Origin: Psychrobacter jeotgali
GTDB taxonomy: Bacteria; Pseudomonadota; Gammaproteobacteria; Pseudomonadales; Moraxellaceae
Length of the DNA stretch: 64,000 nt
Direction of reading: 5' to 3'
Assembly (NCBI RefSeq): GCF_904846315.1
Contig: NZ_CAJHAF010000001.1
Span: 682,001 to 746,000 of the forward strand
Of this stretch, positions 51,609-57,762 are shown in pieces (within the stretch, counting starts at the first letter, position 1; each line of letters opens with the position of its first letter). Below the pieces are notes generated by a model. That model had not been told where the DNA came from and did not search any database. It worked only from the letters and a program-made list of their open reading frames with translations. The position numbers were made by a program, and so were the translations under genes.

Positions 51609-52505
51609 TCAGCTAAGGGCGTGTAAGGTTGCTAGAGCGACAACAGGGGCCGTCTCTGTTCGTAGAACCCGAGACCCAATTTGCCACGCTGCAAAACCAG
51701 CGGCGTCAGCTTGTTGGCGCTCCTCATCACTAAGCCCTCCTTCAGGTCCGATTAACAACTCGATATAAGGCTGCCTTTGAGATAGAACAGCTGATAGGCT
51801 CTCAGGTATAGTAGGTTGGCCGCTGGCAGGAACGCTCAGCTGTAGACGCAAGTTTGCCTGAGTATTTAAGATATGATAGTAGGGATCAGCGCTGAGCGAT
51901 TGAATGGTAGGACTAACTGGCAAAGCCTTATTTATAGCATCGTTTATAGTTTCAGAGCACAACTGCTGTAACCAAATACTGATAGGCAAAGGAGATAGAA
52001 TGAGCGGCGGTCTATTTAGGCCGCACTGCTCACAAGCGGCAATGGCGACTTGCTGCCAATGAGTGAGCTTTTTGTCTACTTGCGTAGGTTTTAGATTAAC
52101 TTCGCCATGATGACTGCTTAACAGCTGAATCGCGGTTACCCCAAGCTCAGTGGCCTTTTGAATAGCATAGTCCATTCGATCGCCACGACTCATAACCAGC
52201 CCAATTTTGCTTATGATAGGTGCGGTACGATCATCATCATGGTGCGCTAATAAAGTAACGGTGGCTTGTTTTTTACTAATGGCATTCAGCTGCACTTGAT
52301 ATTCACCGCCAAAACCATCAAACAAAATCCCTTGCTCACCAATATTGGCACGCAGGACGCGGCACCAGTGATGCACAATGCTTTCTGTAAGCTCAAAGCT
52401 GCTACCGATAGCCAAACTACTCAGCTTTGGGCGTTCAATCGCCTTATTGTTTAGGTTATCCTTGCCGTTACCTTGGCTATCTACCGCATAAAAAAAACGT
52501 CGCAC
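51609..52505 (-). CDS. rsmE: 16S rRNA (uracil1498-N3)-methyltransferase RsmE
   Basis: RsmE is a SPOUT-class methyltransferase acting on U1498 of 16S rRNA. Diagnostic parts are MRRFF at the start, a PUA-like N-terminal domain with HHWCRVLRANIGEQ, QKATELGVTAIQLL, AIAACEQCGLNRPP and the knot LIGPEGGLSDEERQQA plus LGSRVLRTETAPV-like GSRVLRTETAPVVAL. The 298 residues exceed the usual ~245 because of two insertions (an N-terminal Asn/Lys segment and one near residues 175-235). Confidence 0.95.
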   Translation of the reverse strand: MRRFFYAVDSQGNGKDNLNNKAIERPKLSSLAIGSSFELTESIVHHWCRVLRANIGEQGILFDGFGGEYQVQLNAISKKQATVTLLAHHDDDRTAPIISKIGLVMSRGDRMDYAIQKATELGVTAIQLLSSHHGEVNLKPTQVDKKLTHWQQVAIAACEQCGLNRPPLILSPLPISIWLQQLCSETINDAINKALPVSPTIQSLSADPYYHILNTQANLRLQLSVPASGQPTIPESLSAVLSQRQPYIELLIGPEGGLSDEERQQADAAGFAAWQIGSRVLRTETAPVVALATLHALS

Positions 52506-52736: not shown

Positions 52737-53594
52737 CTAAGACAACTCAGTAACCAAACCTAAAGCTTCTACTAGGCTCTTATTAGGCTCAACCTTATTC
52801 ATGCTATAAAAATGCATGGCTGGCACACCCTCGCTGATTAAGCGATCACATAAGCGATAAACCACGTCAAAGCCGAACTCGCGAATAGCTTTACGATCAT
52901 CGCCAAAGTCCGTCAGTTGTTTGCGTACATAACGAGGAATATCAGCGCCGCAACTATCGGCAAAACGCAGCAGATTGCTAGAGTTGGTAATCGGCATAAT
53001 ACCAGCGACTAAGGGCTGAGCCCCTGTATCGATACCTCGGGACTCCAGTGTGTCACGCAGATAAAGGTAGCTATCGGCGTTATAAAAAAACTGAGTAATC
53101 GCTGAATCTGCCCCAGCTTGGAACTTATTAACCAAGTTGTCGATATCAAACTCAAAGCTACGCGCTTGCGGATGCATTTCAGGATAAGCGGCGACTTCGA
53201 TACGGAAATGATCACCTGAGTGCTCACGAATGAACTTCACCAAATCAAGCGCAAAGGGCAGCTCGCCCATTCCCACTTGACCTGAGGGTAGATCACCCCG
53301 TAGCGCGACCAAACGCTTGATGCCTAAGCTTTTATAAAGCTCAAGCAATTCAGCAATCTCATCTTTATCATCGCCAATACAGGACATATGAGGCGCCACT
53401 TCAGTATCGCTGCGCTCGATCAATGCTTTTACGATACCTAAGGTACGCTCACGAGTTGAGCCACCGGCACCATAAGTGACCGAAAAATACGCTGGCGACA
53501 ATTTATTAAGCTCATCAAAGGTATTGAGTAGCTTCTCACCGCCTTGTTCAGTTTTGGCAGGGAAGAACTCAAAGGAGAAAGCCGGCTTACTCAT
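52737..53594 (-). CDS. metF: 5,10-methylenetetrahydrofolate reductase MetF
   Basis: MetF reduces methylene-THF to methyl-THF, the methyl donor for methionine synthase. The FAD-linked TIM-barrel motifs are FSFEFFPAKTEQG, FSVTYGAGGSTRERT, MSCIGDDKDEI, ALRGDLPSG, EVAAYPEMHPQA and ITQFFYNADSYLYL. The 285 residues are normal. It follows ahcY by only 17 bases, forming an operon that couples SAH removal with methyl-group supply and lies downstream of the candidate SAH riboswitch. Confidence 0.96.
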   Translation of the reverse strand: MSKPAFSFEFFPAKTEQGGEKLLNTFDELNKLSPAYFSVTYGAGGSTRERTLGIVKALIERSDTEVAPHMSCIGDDKDEIAELLELYKSLGIKRLVALRGDLPSGQVGMGELPFALDLVKFIREHSGDHFRIEVAAYPEMHPQARSFEFDIDNLVNKFQAGADSAITQFFYNADSYLYLRDTLESRGIDTGAQPLVAGIMPITNSSNLLRFADSCGADIPRYVRKQLTDFGDDRKAIREFGFDVVYRLCDRLISEGVPAMHFYSMNKVEPNKSLVEALGLVTELS

Positions 53595-53611: not shown

Positions 53612-55036
53612 TTAGTATTTGTATTCATCAGGCTTGAATGGTCCTTCGACAGGCACGCCTAAATAGTTGGCTTGCTCTTCGGTAAGCTTGGTGAGCGTAC
53701 CGTTGAAGCCTGCAACCATAGCCGCAGCCACTTCTTCATCCAGCTTTTTCGGTAATACTTTGACGTATAAGTTATCAAAGCGATCATCAATAGGCAATTC
53801 AGCGAACTTCTCTTCAAACAAATACATTTGGGCCAGTACTTGGTTGGCAAATGAGCCGTCCATTACCCGTGATGGGTGACCAGTAGCATTGCCCAAGTTT
53901 ACTAGGCGACCTTCAGCGAGTAGAATCAGGTAATCGTTCTCATCGTCTGAGCGGAAGATTTGATGCACTTGCGGTTTAATCTCAACCCAGCGCCAGTTGT
54001 CACGCATAAACTGAGTGTCAATCTCGGTATCGAAGTGACCGATGTTACAAACGACAGCGCCCGGTTTTAATGCCGCTAGCATGTGTTTGTCACAGACGTG
54101 ATAGTTACCGGTAGTGGTGACTATCATGTCAGTATCTTGGAGCAAACGGGTATTGATGCTGTCTGCACCGCCAGTATTGTCACCATCGATATAAGGGGAA
54201 AGCACTTCATAGCCGTCCATACACGCCTGCATCGCACAGATGGGATCAACTTCTGATACCCGCACAATCATACCTTCTTGACGTAAGCTTTGCGCTGAGC
54301 CTTTACCCACATCACCATAGCCGATGACTAGCGCACGGCGACCAGCGAGGAACATATCGGTAGCACGTTTGATAGCGTCATTTAAGCTATGACGGCAACC
54401 GTATTTATTGTCATTTTTAGATTTGGTGACCGCATCATTAACGTTGATAGCTGGTACTTTTAGGGTACCTTGTTTGAGCATATCGACTAAGCGATGCACG
54501 CCAGTGGTGGTCTCTTCAGAGATACCATGGATGTTATCGAGCATTTGCGGATAGTCATCATGAATGAGCGCGGTTAAGTCGCCGCCATCATCTAGGATTA
54601 GGTTGGCATCCCACAGCTGGCCAGATTCTTCGCCGCCGACATGCACTTGTTGACGTAGGCACCACTCGTACTCTTCTTCGGTCTCGCCTTTCCAAGCATA
54701 GACAGAAATGCCAGCCGCAGCAATAGCCGCCGCAGCATGATCTTGAGTTGAAAAGATATTACATGAGGTCCAGCGCACTTCAGCACCGAGCGCAATTAAG
54801 GTCTCGATAAGGACAGCGGTTTGAATGGTCATGTGGATACAGCCAGCGATCTTAGCGCCTTTAAGGGGCTGCTGGTCCTGGTAACGACGACGCAAGCCCA
54901 TCAAGGCAGGCATTTCGGCTTCAGCAAGGGTGATTTCACGGCGACCGTAATCAGCAAGGCTAATATCGGCGACTTTGTAGTCAGTGAAAGAGGGGTCGAT
55001 CGTATGGGCAGATTGGCTAGTAGACACTGCGTCCAT
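53612..55036 (-). CDS. ahcY: S-adenosylhomocysteine hydrolase
   Basis: AhcY cleaves SAH to homocysteine and adenosine using bound NAD. Typical motifs are [34 protein letters not shown], the NAD-binding [25 protein letters not shown], the [20 protein letters not shown] segment and the C-terminal PFKPDEYKY. The 474 residues include the ~40-residue insertion typical of many bacterial AhcY. AGGAG lies 7 bases before the ATG. A structured leader resembling the SAH riboswitch precedes it. Confidence 0.98.
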
Positions 55037-55066
55037 AATATGCTCCTATCAGTTAATAGATAAAAA

Positions 55067-55102
55067 GAATAAAAACGCAGGTGCCGTTATTTGCACTGTC
55101 GC
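55067..55102 (-). terminator. terminator-like hairpin in the ahcY leader
   Basis: On the minus strand GCGACAGTGC (ending at 55093) can pair, with two bulges, to GCACCTGCGT and is followed by TTTTTATTCTTTTT. It shares the segment GACAGT with an alternative hairpin (ACTGTC at 55124-55129 on the minus strand with GACAGT at 55095-55100), so the two are mutually exclusive and could form a termination switch. Confidence 0.35.
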
Positions 55103-55130
55103 TGTTCACTAATGTGAGTATTTGACAGTT

Positions 55131-55218
55131 AACCGAGCCTAACATAAGAAGGTATTAGCGTGATAATAGCGCTTAAATACAAAAATAACTTCTGATGGTG
55201 CAACACCTCTCGGAGGGT
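55131..55218 (-). promoter_or_regulatory. candidate S-adenosylhomocysteine (SAH) riboswitch
   Basis: On the minus strand the leader reads CCTCCGAGAGGTGTTGCACC and, after a variable AT-rich insert, TTAGGCTCGG. The helix CCGAG (55209-55213) with CTCGG (55133-55137) forms P1; GAGAGGTGTTGC matches the family's GAGGAGCGYUGC core and AGGCTCGG matches its 3' half exactly. SAH riboswitches are known upstream of ahcY in proteobacteria and switch expression on when SAH accumulates. The aptamer ends about 94 bases before the ahcY ATG. Identification is by eye without a covariance model. Confidence 0.85.
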
Positions 55219-55348
55219 CATTATTGTAATATATAGAGCTGCATTTGTCACCTGCGTATTGTCATTTAACGGTATGATAAAATTGCGCTAGTGTGAATAT
55301 TCAATACCTACTGGTGAAAGCAAGACCCTATTAAAATACCACCATATA

Positions 55349-55379
55349 AAAAAGGTCATTGATAATCAATGACCTTTTT
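55349..55379. terminator. bidirectional terminator after the BtuB-like gene
   Basis: AAAAAGGTCATTGA (55349-55362) is the exact complement of TCAATGACCTTTTT (55366-55379), with a three-base loop and flanking A and T runs. It ends the receptor transcript on the minus strand. Confidence 0.85.
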
Positions 55380-55413
55380 GGCTGAGTAGGTAAGTTTGAT
55401 ATTCAGATTAAAT

Positions 55414-57378
55414 CTAATACCAGTTATAAGTTAAAGACGTGAAAAAGTTAGTGCCGTCGGTGTTATAACCGGGGGCTGTTACGTATTTCTCATTAAACAC
55501 GTTATTTAAACGCGCTGACATAGATAAATTTGGGGTTAATTGGTAGTTGCCACTGATATTCACCAAATTATAGCTATCGACTTTTGTAGTATTAGTAGTG
55601 TTGTAGTAATAATCATCGACATACTGATATTCAGCACGGATATCTATATCTGATAGCTTATAACCCATATAAATTAAACCTTTATGCTCGGGACGAATGG
55701 GTAAATAGTTGCCATCAGTCGCTTTGCCGCTATCATCTTTCGCTTTTTGATAGTCATAACTTAAACCAAATAGATAGTTATCGATATTCCAATCAGAGGT
55801 TAGCGTAACTCCTTCAATCTTGGATTTATCAATATTGATGTTTTTACCATAAGGGTATTCGGGGGTATTAATACCATCGCTAGCAATAAGGTCTTCAACT
55901 TTATTGTTGTATCCCGTCAAGCGCGTAGATTGCAGTAAAGTGTCATATTCAATGAAGGCTTCGTAGTTATCACTGGTTTCAGGTTTTAGATTTGGATTAC
56001 CTCCCCAACTGGTAGGGCCAAATAGTTGAGTAAAAGAAGGGGCGCGGTACCCTTTAGCATAGTTTGCCCCGACGCGTAACTCAGGAGTGAGGCGATAAGT
56101 GGCGCCTAAGTTATAAGTGGTTTCATTGTCAAAATCAGAATAATCATCATATCTAACATTGGCTTGAGCATCTATATTGTCTTTAGATAAGATATACCCG
56201 AGATAACCACCCGTAACTTTACGGTCATCGGCTGCATAAACACTTGAGTCTAACTCTTGCTTTAGGTGCTCAATGCCATAAATAGCAGTACCAACCGGTA
56301 ACTTATAATCACCCGTTAAGTTGATCTGCTGTTGCGTGGTATCATATTTATCTGGATTGCCTATCTTAGATTCATATTCATAGGTAGAAGAGTCGGCAAC
56401 ACTATATCCATAAGCTAGCTTAGCTGTTTTTTCAGCATCTTGGTACTGGATATATGCGCTAGCAACCCCGTTTTTTTGATCAACATAAGCGTCAGGTAAG
56501 GCTGTTTCTAGCTTTTCATAGGGCGGCTCCCAGTTATACTGATCCGCTGAATCAATATCGGTGGTAGAGTCAGCATATAAGCCACTAACACCTACCGTGA
56601 CCGCTTCATTCACCTTTTGGTTGAGATTCAAACTATAGTTATTGCTCTTAAAGCCATCATCGTCTTTATTATAACCATAGCCATCGGGAGCAACGGCGCT
56701 AAAACCCTTGGTTTCGTTACGGCTTGCCGATAGACTCAAGCTTGTACCTTGATCGTTTCTGAACTGTGCAGTGGCGCCATATACATAATGGTCGTGAGAG
56801 CCAGCTCCTACGGTTACAGAAAATTTATTTTGTTCAATGTTAGCACCTTTAGTAAATATCTGAATAACGCCGCCCATAGCATCTGCCCCATAAATACTTG
56901 AGCCTGATGCGCCATATAACACTTCAATACGTTCCACTTGATCAGCAGGTAATAAACTTAATGCTGCACCGCCATCATCGATAGAGCTATAACGTATGCC
57001 GTCAACTAACACCAAAACTTGTCTTTTGTCGTAACCACGAACATAGAAATTACTAGTAGTTCCCATACCGCCGTTAGAAAAATGGCTAAATCCTGGTTGA
57101 CGAGAAATCACATCGACCACCGTTTGACCTTGATAACGCTGTAACTCTTCACTATCAATAACGCGAGTTTGAGCAATAACGTTGCTGGTTTTAGTCGGTG
57201 TACGGGTAGCGGTTACTACTATCTCATCAAGCTGAACTTGTGGTAGCCTATTTGCTTCAAAGCTATCAATATTATTGACAGGGGTTGCTGCTATCGCAGT
57301 ATGAACGGCGCATAACCCAAGGATACTGACAACAGATGATCTAAGATAAAAGCTTGCGGACGAGCGTGATGACACCAT
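55414..57378 (-). CDS. BtuB-like TonB-dependent outer-membrane receptor
   Basis: A 22-strand-type outer-membrane receptor that imports a ligand using TonB energy. A signal peptide (SSVVSILGLCAVHTAIAA) is followed by a TonB box-like DEIVVTATR, the plug (TVVDVISRQPGFS, FYVRGYDKRQVLVLVDGIR, GSSIYGADAMGGVIQIFTKG) and a barrel ending in the aromatic FFTSLTYNWY. The plug and a DDDGFKSNNYSLN segment resemble vitamin B12 receptor BtuB, but the ligand is not proven. The frame reaches 57495, but the ATG at 57378 with GGA 7 bases upstream gives a normal signal peptide (654 residues). No cobalamin box is visible upstream. Confidence 0.85.
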   Translation of the reverse strand: MVSSRSSASFYLRSSVVSILGLCAVHTAIAATPVNNIDSFEANRLPQVQLDEIVVTATRTPTKTSNVIAQTRVIDSEELQRYQGQTVVDVISRQPGFSHFSNGGMGTTSNFYVRGYDKRQVLVLVDGIRYSSIDDGGAALSLLPADQVERIEVLYGASGSSIYGADAMGGVIQIFTKGANIEQNKFSVTVGAGSHDHYVYGATAQFRNDQGTSLSLSASRNETKGFSAVAPDGYGYNKDDDGFKSNNYSLNLNQKVNEAVTVGVSGLYADSTTDIDSADQYNWEPPYEKLETALPDAYVDQKNGVASAYIQYQDAEKTAKLAYGYSVADSSTYEYESKIGNPDKYDTTQQQINLTGDYKLPVGTAIYGIEHLKQELDSSVYAADDRKVTGGYLGYILSKDNIDAQANVRYDDYSDFDNETTYNLGATYRLTPELRVGANYAKGYRAPSFTQLFGPTSWGGNPNLKPETSDNYEAFIEYDTLLQSTRLTGYNNKVEDLIASDGINTPEYPYGKNINIDKSKIEGVTLTSDWNIDNYLFGLSYDYQKAKDDSGKATDGNYLPIRPEHKGLIYMGYKLSDIDIRAEYQYVDDYYYNTTNTTKVDSYNLVNISGNYQLTPNLSMSARLNNVFNEKYVTAPGYNTDGTNFFTSLTYNWY

Positions 57379-57762
57379 AATTGATTCCAAATTTACCAAG
57401 TTAAAAAACACAAAACAGCAGGTTATTATTACAAAAAACAATAGATCATTTAAACTGCGCTTATTATCTACAAAACTGCATCTTTTATAAACCACTTTGA
57501 GCTAATGTTTATTCAGCTTATGTTGAATGGTTTTCATCAAAGCTCAATGAGGATTCGTTTTTTCACTAATGAGGCTTATCAACATCAAGCTTGTCAATGA
57601 AAGGTAGTTAAGAAGCAAAAACATAATTCGCTATAAATAAGTGCAATCAAAAGCAATACAGTCATAAATAATTGTTATCATAGTGACAGCTTTTATAAGT
57701 TCACTATTATGGTTGAATGCCGTTTTAAATGCTAATACCTAAATCATATTAAGAGGTTTGTT
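57379..57762. other. divergent promoter region of the receptor and the MscS-like gene
   Basis: About 384 bases between the two divergent starts. A weak Fur-box-like stretch is present at 57667-57683 (reverse complement CTATGATAACAATTATT, matching about 12 of 17 positions of the Fur pattern). No B12 riboswitch, no RNA gene and no further supported open frame were seen. Confidence 0.4.

Follow-up and report, generated by a model that had tools for sequence, protein, structure and literature searches.

A Putative Diverged SAH Riboswitch Ahead of ahcY–metF–rsmE in Psychrobacter jeotgali, with ahcY Codons 2–5 as a Predicted Arm of the Switch

SAH Elements in the Moraxellaceae and the ahcY Locus of P. 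jeotgali

SAH riboswitches are said to activate their genes, as reportedly described by Wang et al. in 2008, and Pavlova and Penchovsky reportedly carried out genome-wide work on SAH riboswitches in pathogens in 2019. Among the closest described systems is the SAH regulon that Leyn et al. (2014, PMC4239095) predicted in the Moraxellaceae, in the excerpted text of which an Rfam scan places an SAH element in two of four Moraxellaceae genomes and gives ahcY, metF and COG1385 (rsmE) as its targets, rsmE being specific to the Moraxellaceae, with no SahR listed for this family in Table 1. SAH elements in the Moraxellaceae were thus already predicted in 2014, and since the operon of that report matches the one studied here, the presence of the aptamer in this family is not new; the excerpted text names no genus and no expression platform. 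We found nothing on an SAH riboswitch in Psychrobacter in the open-access literature, no such element described in the excerpted open-access literature on Acinetobacter, and no description of the leader–ORF clamp presented below in the open-access literature on SAH riboswitches, most of it surveyed by listing. What is new here is the expression platform, in a diverged variant of a known sensor class.

We analyzed a 64,000-nucleotide stretch of the P. jeotgali genome at positions 682001–746000 of contig C1 (hereafter, the window), in which ahcY (adenosylhomocysteinase, 53612–55036, minus strand, start at 55036; TIGR00936 above its curated cut-off) is followed on the same strand by metF (methylenetetrahydrofolate reductase, 52737–53594; TIGR00676 just above its cut-off) and rsmE (16S rRNA (uracil(1498)-N(3))-methyltransferase, 51609–52505; NF008692 above its cut-off), the last of which is probably in the same operon. 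This gene order is that of the regulon of Leyn et al. (PMC4239095), and the leader position before an SAH-recycling gene (ahcY, TIGR00936) is a feature of the class. Upstream on the minus strand lies a TonB-dependent receptor-like ORF (55414–57495, BtuB-like by eye), and between it and the ahcY leader is a hairpin, AAAAAGGTCATTG...CAATGACCTTTTTT (55388–55356), with T runs on both strands, which is probably a bidirectional terminator.

The leader is preceded by a putative sigma-70-type promoter (55223–55251, minus strand), with GTGACA (55251–55246) and TACAAT (55228–55223) separated by 17 nt and 10 of 12 consensus positions matched. Promoter-like sites in the window scan are no rarer in shuffled sequence (2 found, compared with a mean of 2.0), but this promoter is made credible by its conservation: in all 99 Psychrobacter leaders compared, TGAC[AT]-N17-TACAAT ends 8–10 nt upstream of the [CT]GAG core, so that transcription probably starts only a few bases from P1, near 55219–55216.

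Architecture, Conservation and Covariation of the Aptamer

The initial annotation had proposed an SAH riboswitch at 55131–55218 on the strength of motifs in the minus-strand leader of ahcY, and all of these motifs are found where it had described them: CCGAG at 55213–55209, GAGAGGTGTTGC at 55211–55200 and AGGCTCGG at 55140–55133. The P1 5′ strand, CCGAG (55209–55213), pairs with CUCGG (55137–55133), which together with UUAGG makes up the 3′ core (55133–55142) as identified by motif and pair counts. Between the two strands lies P2 (55143–55197), with a basal CAU (55197–55195)/AUG (55145–55143) stem, a second stem AGAAG (55193–55189)/CUUCU (55151–55147) and a long loop that varies in sequence and length among relatives. 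The interval proposed earlier does hold P1 and P2, but it omits P3, a hairpin in the MFE folds (55095–55129; ACUGUC at 55129–55124, GACAGU at 55100–55095), and the 3′ strand of the P4 pseudoknot, in which AGGUGUU (55202–55208) pairs with GGCACCU (55085–55079), placed by leader comparison and pair counts and preceded by a conserved AAC. The element thus extends as far as the start of ahcY, and the initial annotation had missed P3, the P4 pseudoknot and the expression platform.

By Rfam's own rule, the window lies outside RF01057. The whole-window scan gave no family at its cut-off, and the covariance check put forward in the initial annotation went against it, since RF01057 did not match the locus even with the threshold relaxed to E ≤ 10, whether in a scan of 54900–55500 or in a genome search, and the element is therefore below the 37-bit gathering cut-off. 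Five weak matches elsewhere in the genome (13.5–18.8 bits) were set aside, as 10 of 14 control genomes give matches at that level. We then note the behavior of the relatives: among 20 other Psychrobacter ahcY leaders, picked for short inserts or divergence, 12 are matched by RF01057 at E ≤ 10, the best at 34.5 bits and none at 37, and those with short P2/P3 inserts score 30–34.5 bits at the same place. In 40 other genomes of the family Moraxellaceae, there are 18 with a match at E ≤ 0.05 and 15 with a score above the cut-off, which is also exceeded in 13 of 145 genomes of the order-level sample. Fourteen further named loci (Acinetobacter, Moraxella and one labelled Streptomyces) gave a match before ahcY in nine cases (24.9–34.9 bits, with Acinetobacter scoring up to 34.9) and none in five, and of 20 named loci scanned at the gathering cut-off, the sole pass was from Alkanindiges (L206, 39 bits). 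Given the 30–34.5 bits of the short-insert Psychrobacter leaders and the scores above 37 in other Moraxellaceae, we judge the absent match to be a limit of the model, probably caused by the long inserts, rather than a refutation, and we treat the cut-off as a detection line and not as biology.

The missing Rfam match could also mean that there is no real element here and that the likeness to the SAH aptamer is due to chance, a reading to which the folding energy lends something: for the initially annotated interval extended by 10 bases on each side, the MFE has a z-score of only −0.50, with 57 of 200 shuffles equally stable. A weak z-score is expected, however, if a pseudoknot, invisible to the folding program, makes up much of the fold, and comparison across genomes leaves the chance reading with almost no probability, such that we count it as already refuted. 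Of 348 family genomes, 82 carry the pattern CTCCGAG-N60-90-AGGCTCGG, including 78 of 105 Psychrobacter genomes, compared with 5 of 348 for the backward control; one match within the genus (G062) and the four in other genomes have differing interiors and look like chance. The gene ahcY was found in 104 of the 105 Psychrobacter genomes, and the aptamer core [CT]GAG[AG]GGTGTTGC is kept in 99 of 99 of their ahcY leaders (98 loci from 97 genomes, with G081 represented twice, plus the window; 98 of the 104 genus genomes with ahcY match), as are UGC, AGGCTC and the AAC before the P4 strand. A second copy of the core was also sought in the genome, giving only a one-mismatch match to CGAGAGGTGCTGC at 2582247–2582259 on the plus strand (G000, contig C1).

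The pairing itself is retained among relatives, and the loss of P1 that would have counted against the initial annotation is not seen. Across 126 sequences (99 from Psychrobacter and 27 others), four P1 pairs are standard in 126 and the fifth in 125, with C–G/U–A exchange at two positions. In P4, all 126 sequences have standard pairs at positions 1–6, and 120 have one at position 7. Lineages differ on both sides of the helix at positions 1, 2, 3, 4 and 6 (at position 6, U–A compared with C–G, with U–G the commonest), and these compensatory changes span the Moraxellaceae and the Pseudomonadales. The 12 distinct P4 strand combinations are 96.4% paired, compared with a shuffle mean of 85.3% and with none of 2000 shuffles as good, where the 3′ strand of the 27 non-Psychrobacter sequences is the best complement within a stretch and the shuffle ignores relatedness. 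Two loci at 26.6–27.6 bits stand outside this comparison, one without a downstream P4 motif (L080) and one resembling an unrelated repeat (L081). P4 thus lies between the strand that follows the P1 5′ strand and a strand 3′ of P1, as in the class, subject to the same choice of 3′ strand in the 27 sequences. The first three P2 pairs are standard in 98, 99 and 99 of the 99 Psychrobacter leaders and pairs 4–6 in 83, 84 and 79, with several pair types.

The unusually long variable insert reported in the initial annotation is confirmed, together with its AGCG...CGCT hairpin (55173–55170/55160–55157, minus strand), which lies inside the P2 loop. The interval from the P4 5′ strand to the P1 3′ strand is 71 nt in the window and 34–123 nt in Psychrobacter, compared with a median of 30 in the 27 other sequences, and the P1–P4 linker is 48 nt in the window and 25–245 nt in Psychrobacter, compared with a median of 22. 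The region of the binding pocket has also changed, with UUAGG in 87 of 99 Psychrobacter leaders where the 27 others have CCAGG, UCAGG or CGAGG, and UGC[AG]C/U where they have UGC[AG][AG]. Such changes would be expected if this conserved RNA regulator had kept the architecture but responded to a different ligand, for example SAM, or to no small molecule at all, but we consider this decidedly improbable in view of the continuous descent from elements above the SAH cut-off, the unchanged target gene, and the retention in the alignments of the RF01057 consensus pieces CCGAG, UGC, AGGCUCGG and CAACGGC.

Beyond Psychrobacter, 31 of the 73 other named ahcY leaders show an SAH-like core by a loose pattern, among them all 23 Acinetobacter loci (L204, L209–L218, L220–L227, L229–L231 and L233), where the core is upstream of ahcY and none of the loci scanned scores as high as the Rfam cut-off. 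Two Moraxella loci (L202 and L203) carry an SAH-like element with P1 CCAAG/CUUGG and P4 AGAUGUU/GACAUCU and give no RF01057 match at E ≤ 5. A record labelled Streptomyces cinereus (L201) has an AhcY 82% identical to that of the window and a Psychrobacter-like leader, and its label is probably wrong.

Taking descent, covariation and gene context together, an SAH-type aptamer ahead of ahcY–metF, as first suggested in the initial annotation, is well supported, with SAH binding predicted, and we regard its membership of the SAH riboswitch class as nearly certain on these comparative grounds.

Pairing between the Leader and ahcY Codons 2–5

Folding transcripts from the inferred start brought out a second partner for the P4 3′ strand. 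A switch strand, GGCAC-C-UGCGU (55075–55085, minus strand), forms the helix 5′-G[AG]CAC(C)UGCGU-3′ with 5′-ACGCAGUGUC-3′, codons 2–5 of ahcY (55023–55032, minus strand), leaving one C bulged. As this helix and P4 share 55085–55079, they are mutually exclusive, and as the bulged C pairs in P4, a single strand serves both. The helix encloses a Shine–Dalgarno hairpin seen in the MFE folds (55043–55066, minus strand), formed by UUUUUAUC (55066–55059) and GAUAGGAG (55050–55043). All 10 pairs of the leader–ORF helix are present in 95 of the 99 Psychrobacter leaders and nine of the 10 in the other four (two of deep Psychrobacter type and two others).

Two other pairings were considered and rejected. 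In a fold of 55030–55260, an upstream ACGCAGGTG pairs with CACCTGCGT, but the upstream strand falls within the −35 region, ahead of the inferred start, and GCAGGTG is found there in only one of the 99 leaders, that of the window. An AACG/CGUU hairpin and a GCGC/GCGU terminator-like stem, noticed by eye near the P4 strand, are not kept in relatives, and no terminator-like site was found there.

The coding half of the helix is constrained at its synonymous sites. Among 67 distinct ahcY genes (84 of 86 tried being usable; 66 cover codons 2–4, with L286 lacking a start in the fetched reading), the third base is invariant in only three of 352 conserved degenerate codons, defined as those with the amino acid conserved above 95%, and these are codons 2, 3 and 4, for which random placement has a chance of about 1.4 × 10⁻⁷. 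The third base of codon 5 varies (TCT in 91, TCG in 5 and TCA in 3 of 99), later codons are more variable, and two genomes in which codon 2 has changed from GAC to AAC retain ACGCAGTGTC. When the 192 synonymous sets for codons 2–5 are ranked by stability, the native set falls within the top 6–13 in all 99 Psychrobacter leaders, and at six other loci the native codons rank 13/128, 4/64, 4/64, 8/192, 11/64 and 2/192.

The leader half changes together with the coding half, as given here in match counts rather than in independent events on a tree. Leader CCGCG occurs with ORF CGCGG in Acinetobacter, Alkanindiges and others, and leader CUGCG with ORF CGCAG in Psychrobacter, the two Moraxella loci (L202 and L203), A. 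qingfengensis and the record labelled Streptomyces cinereus. A pattern allowing either base gave 58 matches in 57 of 80 family genomes (57 C–G, one U–A and none discordant; 23 genomes have no exact match), the named loci carry the motif in 32 of 34 cases (27 C–G, five U–A and none discordant), and leader C/U agrees with ORF G/A in 99 of 99 Psychrobacter leaders. The difference between A. qingfengensis and other Acinetobacter points to at least one such change within that genus.

Inverted complementarity of this kind could instead be the DNA operator of a repressor, operators often being marked by inverted repeats, or could arise by chance from the N-terminal peptide and codon bias, as codons 2–5 encode the conserved MDAVS. 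We give this very little credence: a dyad operator would not show the range of 38–63 nt seen in the spacing of the arms, the GCA and GTG codons used here are in the minority elsewhere in ahcY genes (0.18 and 0.16), and the arms covary by compensatory change and sit exactly on the P4 strand. Synonymous-site selection and covariation, as read from these comparisons, show that a second pairing with codons 2–5 is maintained.

We modelled the two states of the leader in 96 distinct Psychrobacter sequences. In the ligand-free state, the predicted probability of the leader–ORF helix has a mean of 0.96 and exceeds 0.5 in 95 of the 96. In the modelled bound state (P1 forced, P4 strands blocked), the mean falls to 0.18, a loss that is partly by construction because the bound state is imposed as a constraint, and the unpaired probability of the start region rises from 0.24 to 0.39 (up by more than 0.1 in 91 leaders and down in none). 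The Shine–Dalgarno region hardly opens, moving from 0.10 to 0.13 unpaired, and it is here that the model is at its weakest.

The relatives' platforms were compared by single-sequence MFE folds of 27 segments from the P4 3′ strand onward. In five Moraxellaceae-family leaders (L071, L180 and L182–L184), CGUUC[AG] pairs with UGAACG at the start codon; in the leaders L192 and L193, CCGCG pairs with ORF CGCGG around a hairpin; and in eight Moraxellaceae-family leaders (L072, L181, L185 and L187–L191), a strong hairpin that resembles a terminator overlaps the P4 strand. These predicted folds suggest that several expression platforms may be used within the family Moraxellaceae, and that the P4 3′ strand may often double as part of a repressive structure.

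The eight terminator-like leaders, together with the presence of the UUUUUAUC/GAUAGGAG hairpin in both modelled states of the window, lend some weight to a variant in which the same SAH aptamer acts mainly through the Shine–Dalgarno hairpin or through transcription termination, with the leader–ORF complementarity secondary. We consider this unlikely: no terminator-like site was found in 54950–55450, the Shine–Dalgarno hairpin hardly changes between the modelled states, and it would not explain why invariant third bases are limited to codons 2–4 or why leader and ORF covary. The leader–ORF clamp is, in our assessment, very probably the expression platform.

Proposed Mechanism and Comparison with Known Systems

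We propose that the ahcY–metF–rsmE leader is a diverged SAH riboswitch that switches translation on. At low SAH, the strand GGCACCUGCGU would clamp codons 2–5, closing over the Shine–Dalgarno hairpin and the start codon, so that little AhcY is made; when SAH binds, P1 and P4 would be stabilized, the strand reclaimed and the start region freed. Accumulation of SAH would then raise SAH hydrolase and probably MetF as well. According to the excerpted text of Leyn et al. (2014, PMC4239095), SAH inhibits methyltransferases and AhcY removes it, so that switching the gene on in response to SAH would be metabolically sensible, and we hold this translational unclamping of the ahcY start to be highly likely as a whole.

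It is also quite likely, if to be read with somewhat more caution, that across the Moraxellaceae (Psychrobacter, Acinetobacter, Alkanindiges and Moraxella) the first ahcY codons serve as a riboswitch arm, an RNA code laid over the coding sequence by which synonymous sites are held fixed and which coevolves with the leader, and that much of the family's SAH switches lie below the Rfam threshold. If so, the N-terminal coding sequence of AhcY and the pseudoknot strand of the aptamer evolve as one switch. The element extends a known riboswitch class to a diverged form that the Rfam model, at its cut-off, misses here and in every Psychrobacter and Acinetobacter leader scanned, and the locus offers a testable case of an enzyme gene whose codons 2–4 are fixed by RNA regulation and not by the needs of the protein, with the leader/ORF covariation predicting which synonymous changes break control and which rescue it.

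Compared with RF01057, the element shares P1 CCGAG/CUCGG, the UGC and AGGCUCGG core, CAAC-G[AG]C before and in the P4 3′ strand, a P2 in between and the site before ahcY–metF. It differs in P4 (AGGUGUU/GGCACCU, compared with GRGCGCU/GGCGCYC in Rfam), in UUAGG in place of CCAGG, in its longer P2 interval and P1–P4 linker (71 and 48 nt, compared with medians of 30 and 22), and in scoring below the cut-off or not matching at all. In Pseudomonas-type SAH leaders (L066–L070, L073, L075 and L076), a repressive hairpin likewise has its 5′ arm next to the P4 3′ strand or overlapping it, but the predicted hairpin there, CAUUCG/CGAAUGG, occupies the ribosome-binding site and not codons 2–5. Finally, the add adenine riboswitch of Vibrio vulnificus is, in the excerpted text of its description (PMC5847336), likewise a translational on switch, with another aptamer and ligand, and its partner strand comes from P1, whereas here the pseudoknot strand would provide it and the clamp would fall on codons 2–5.
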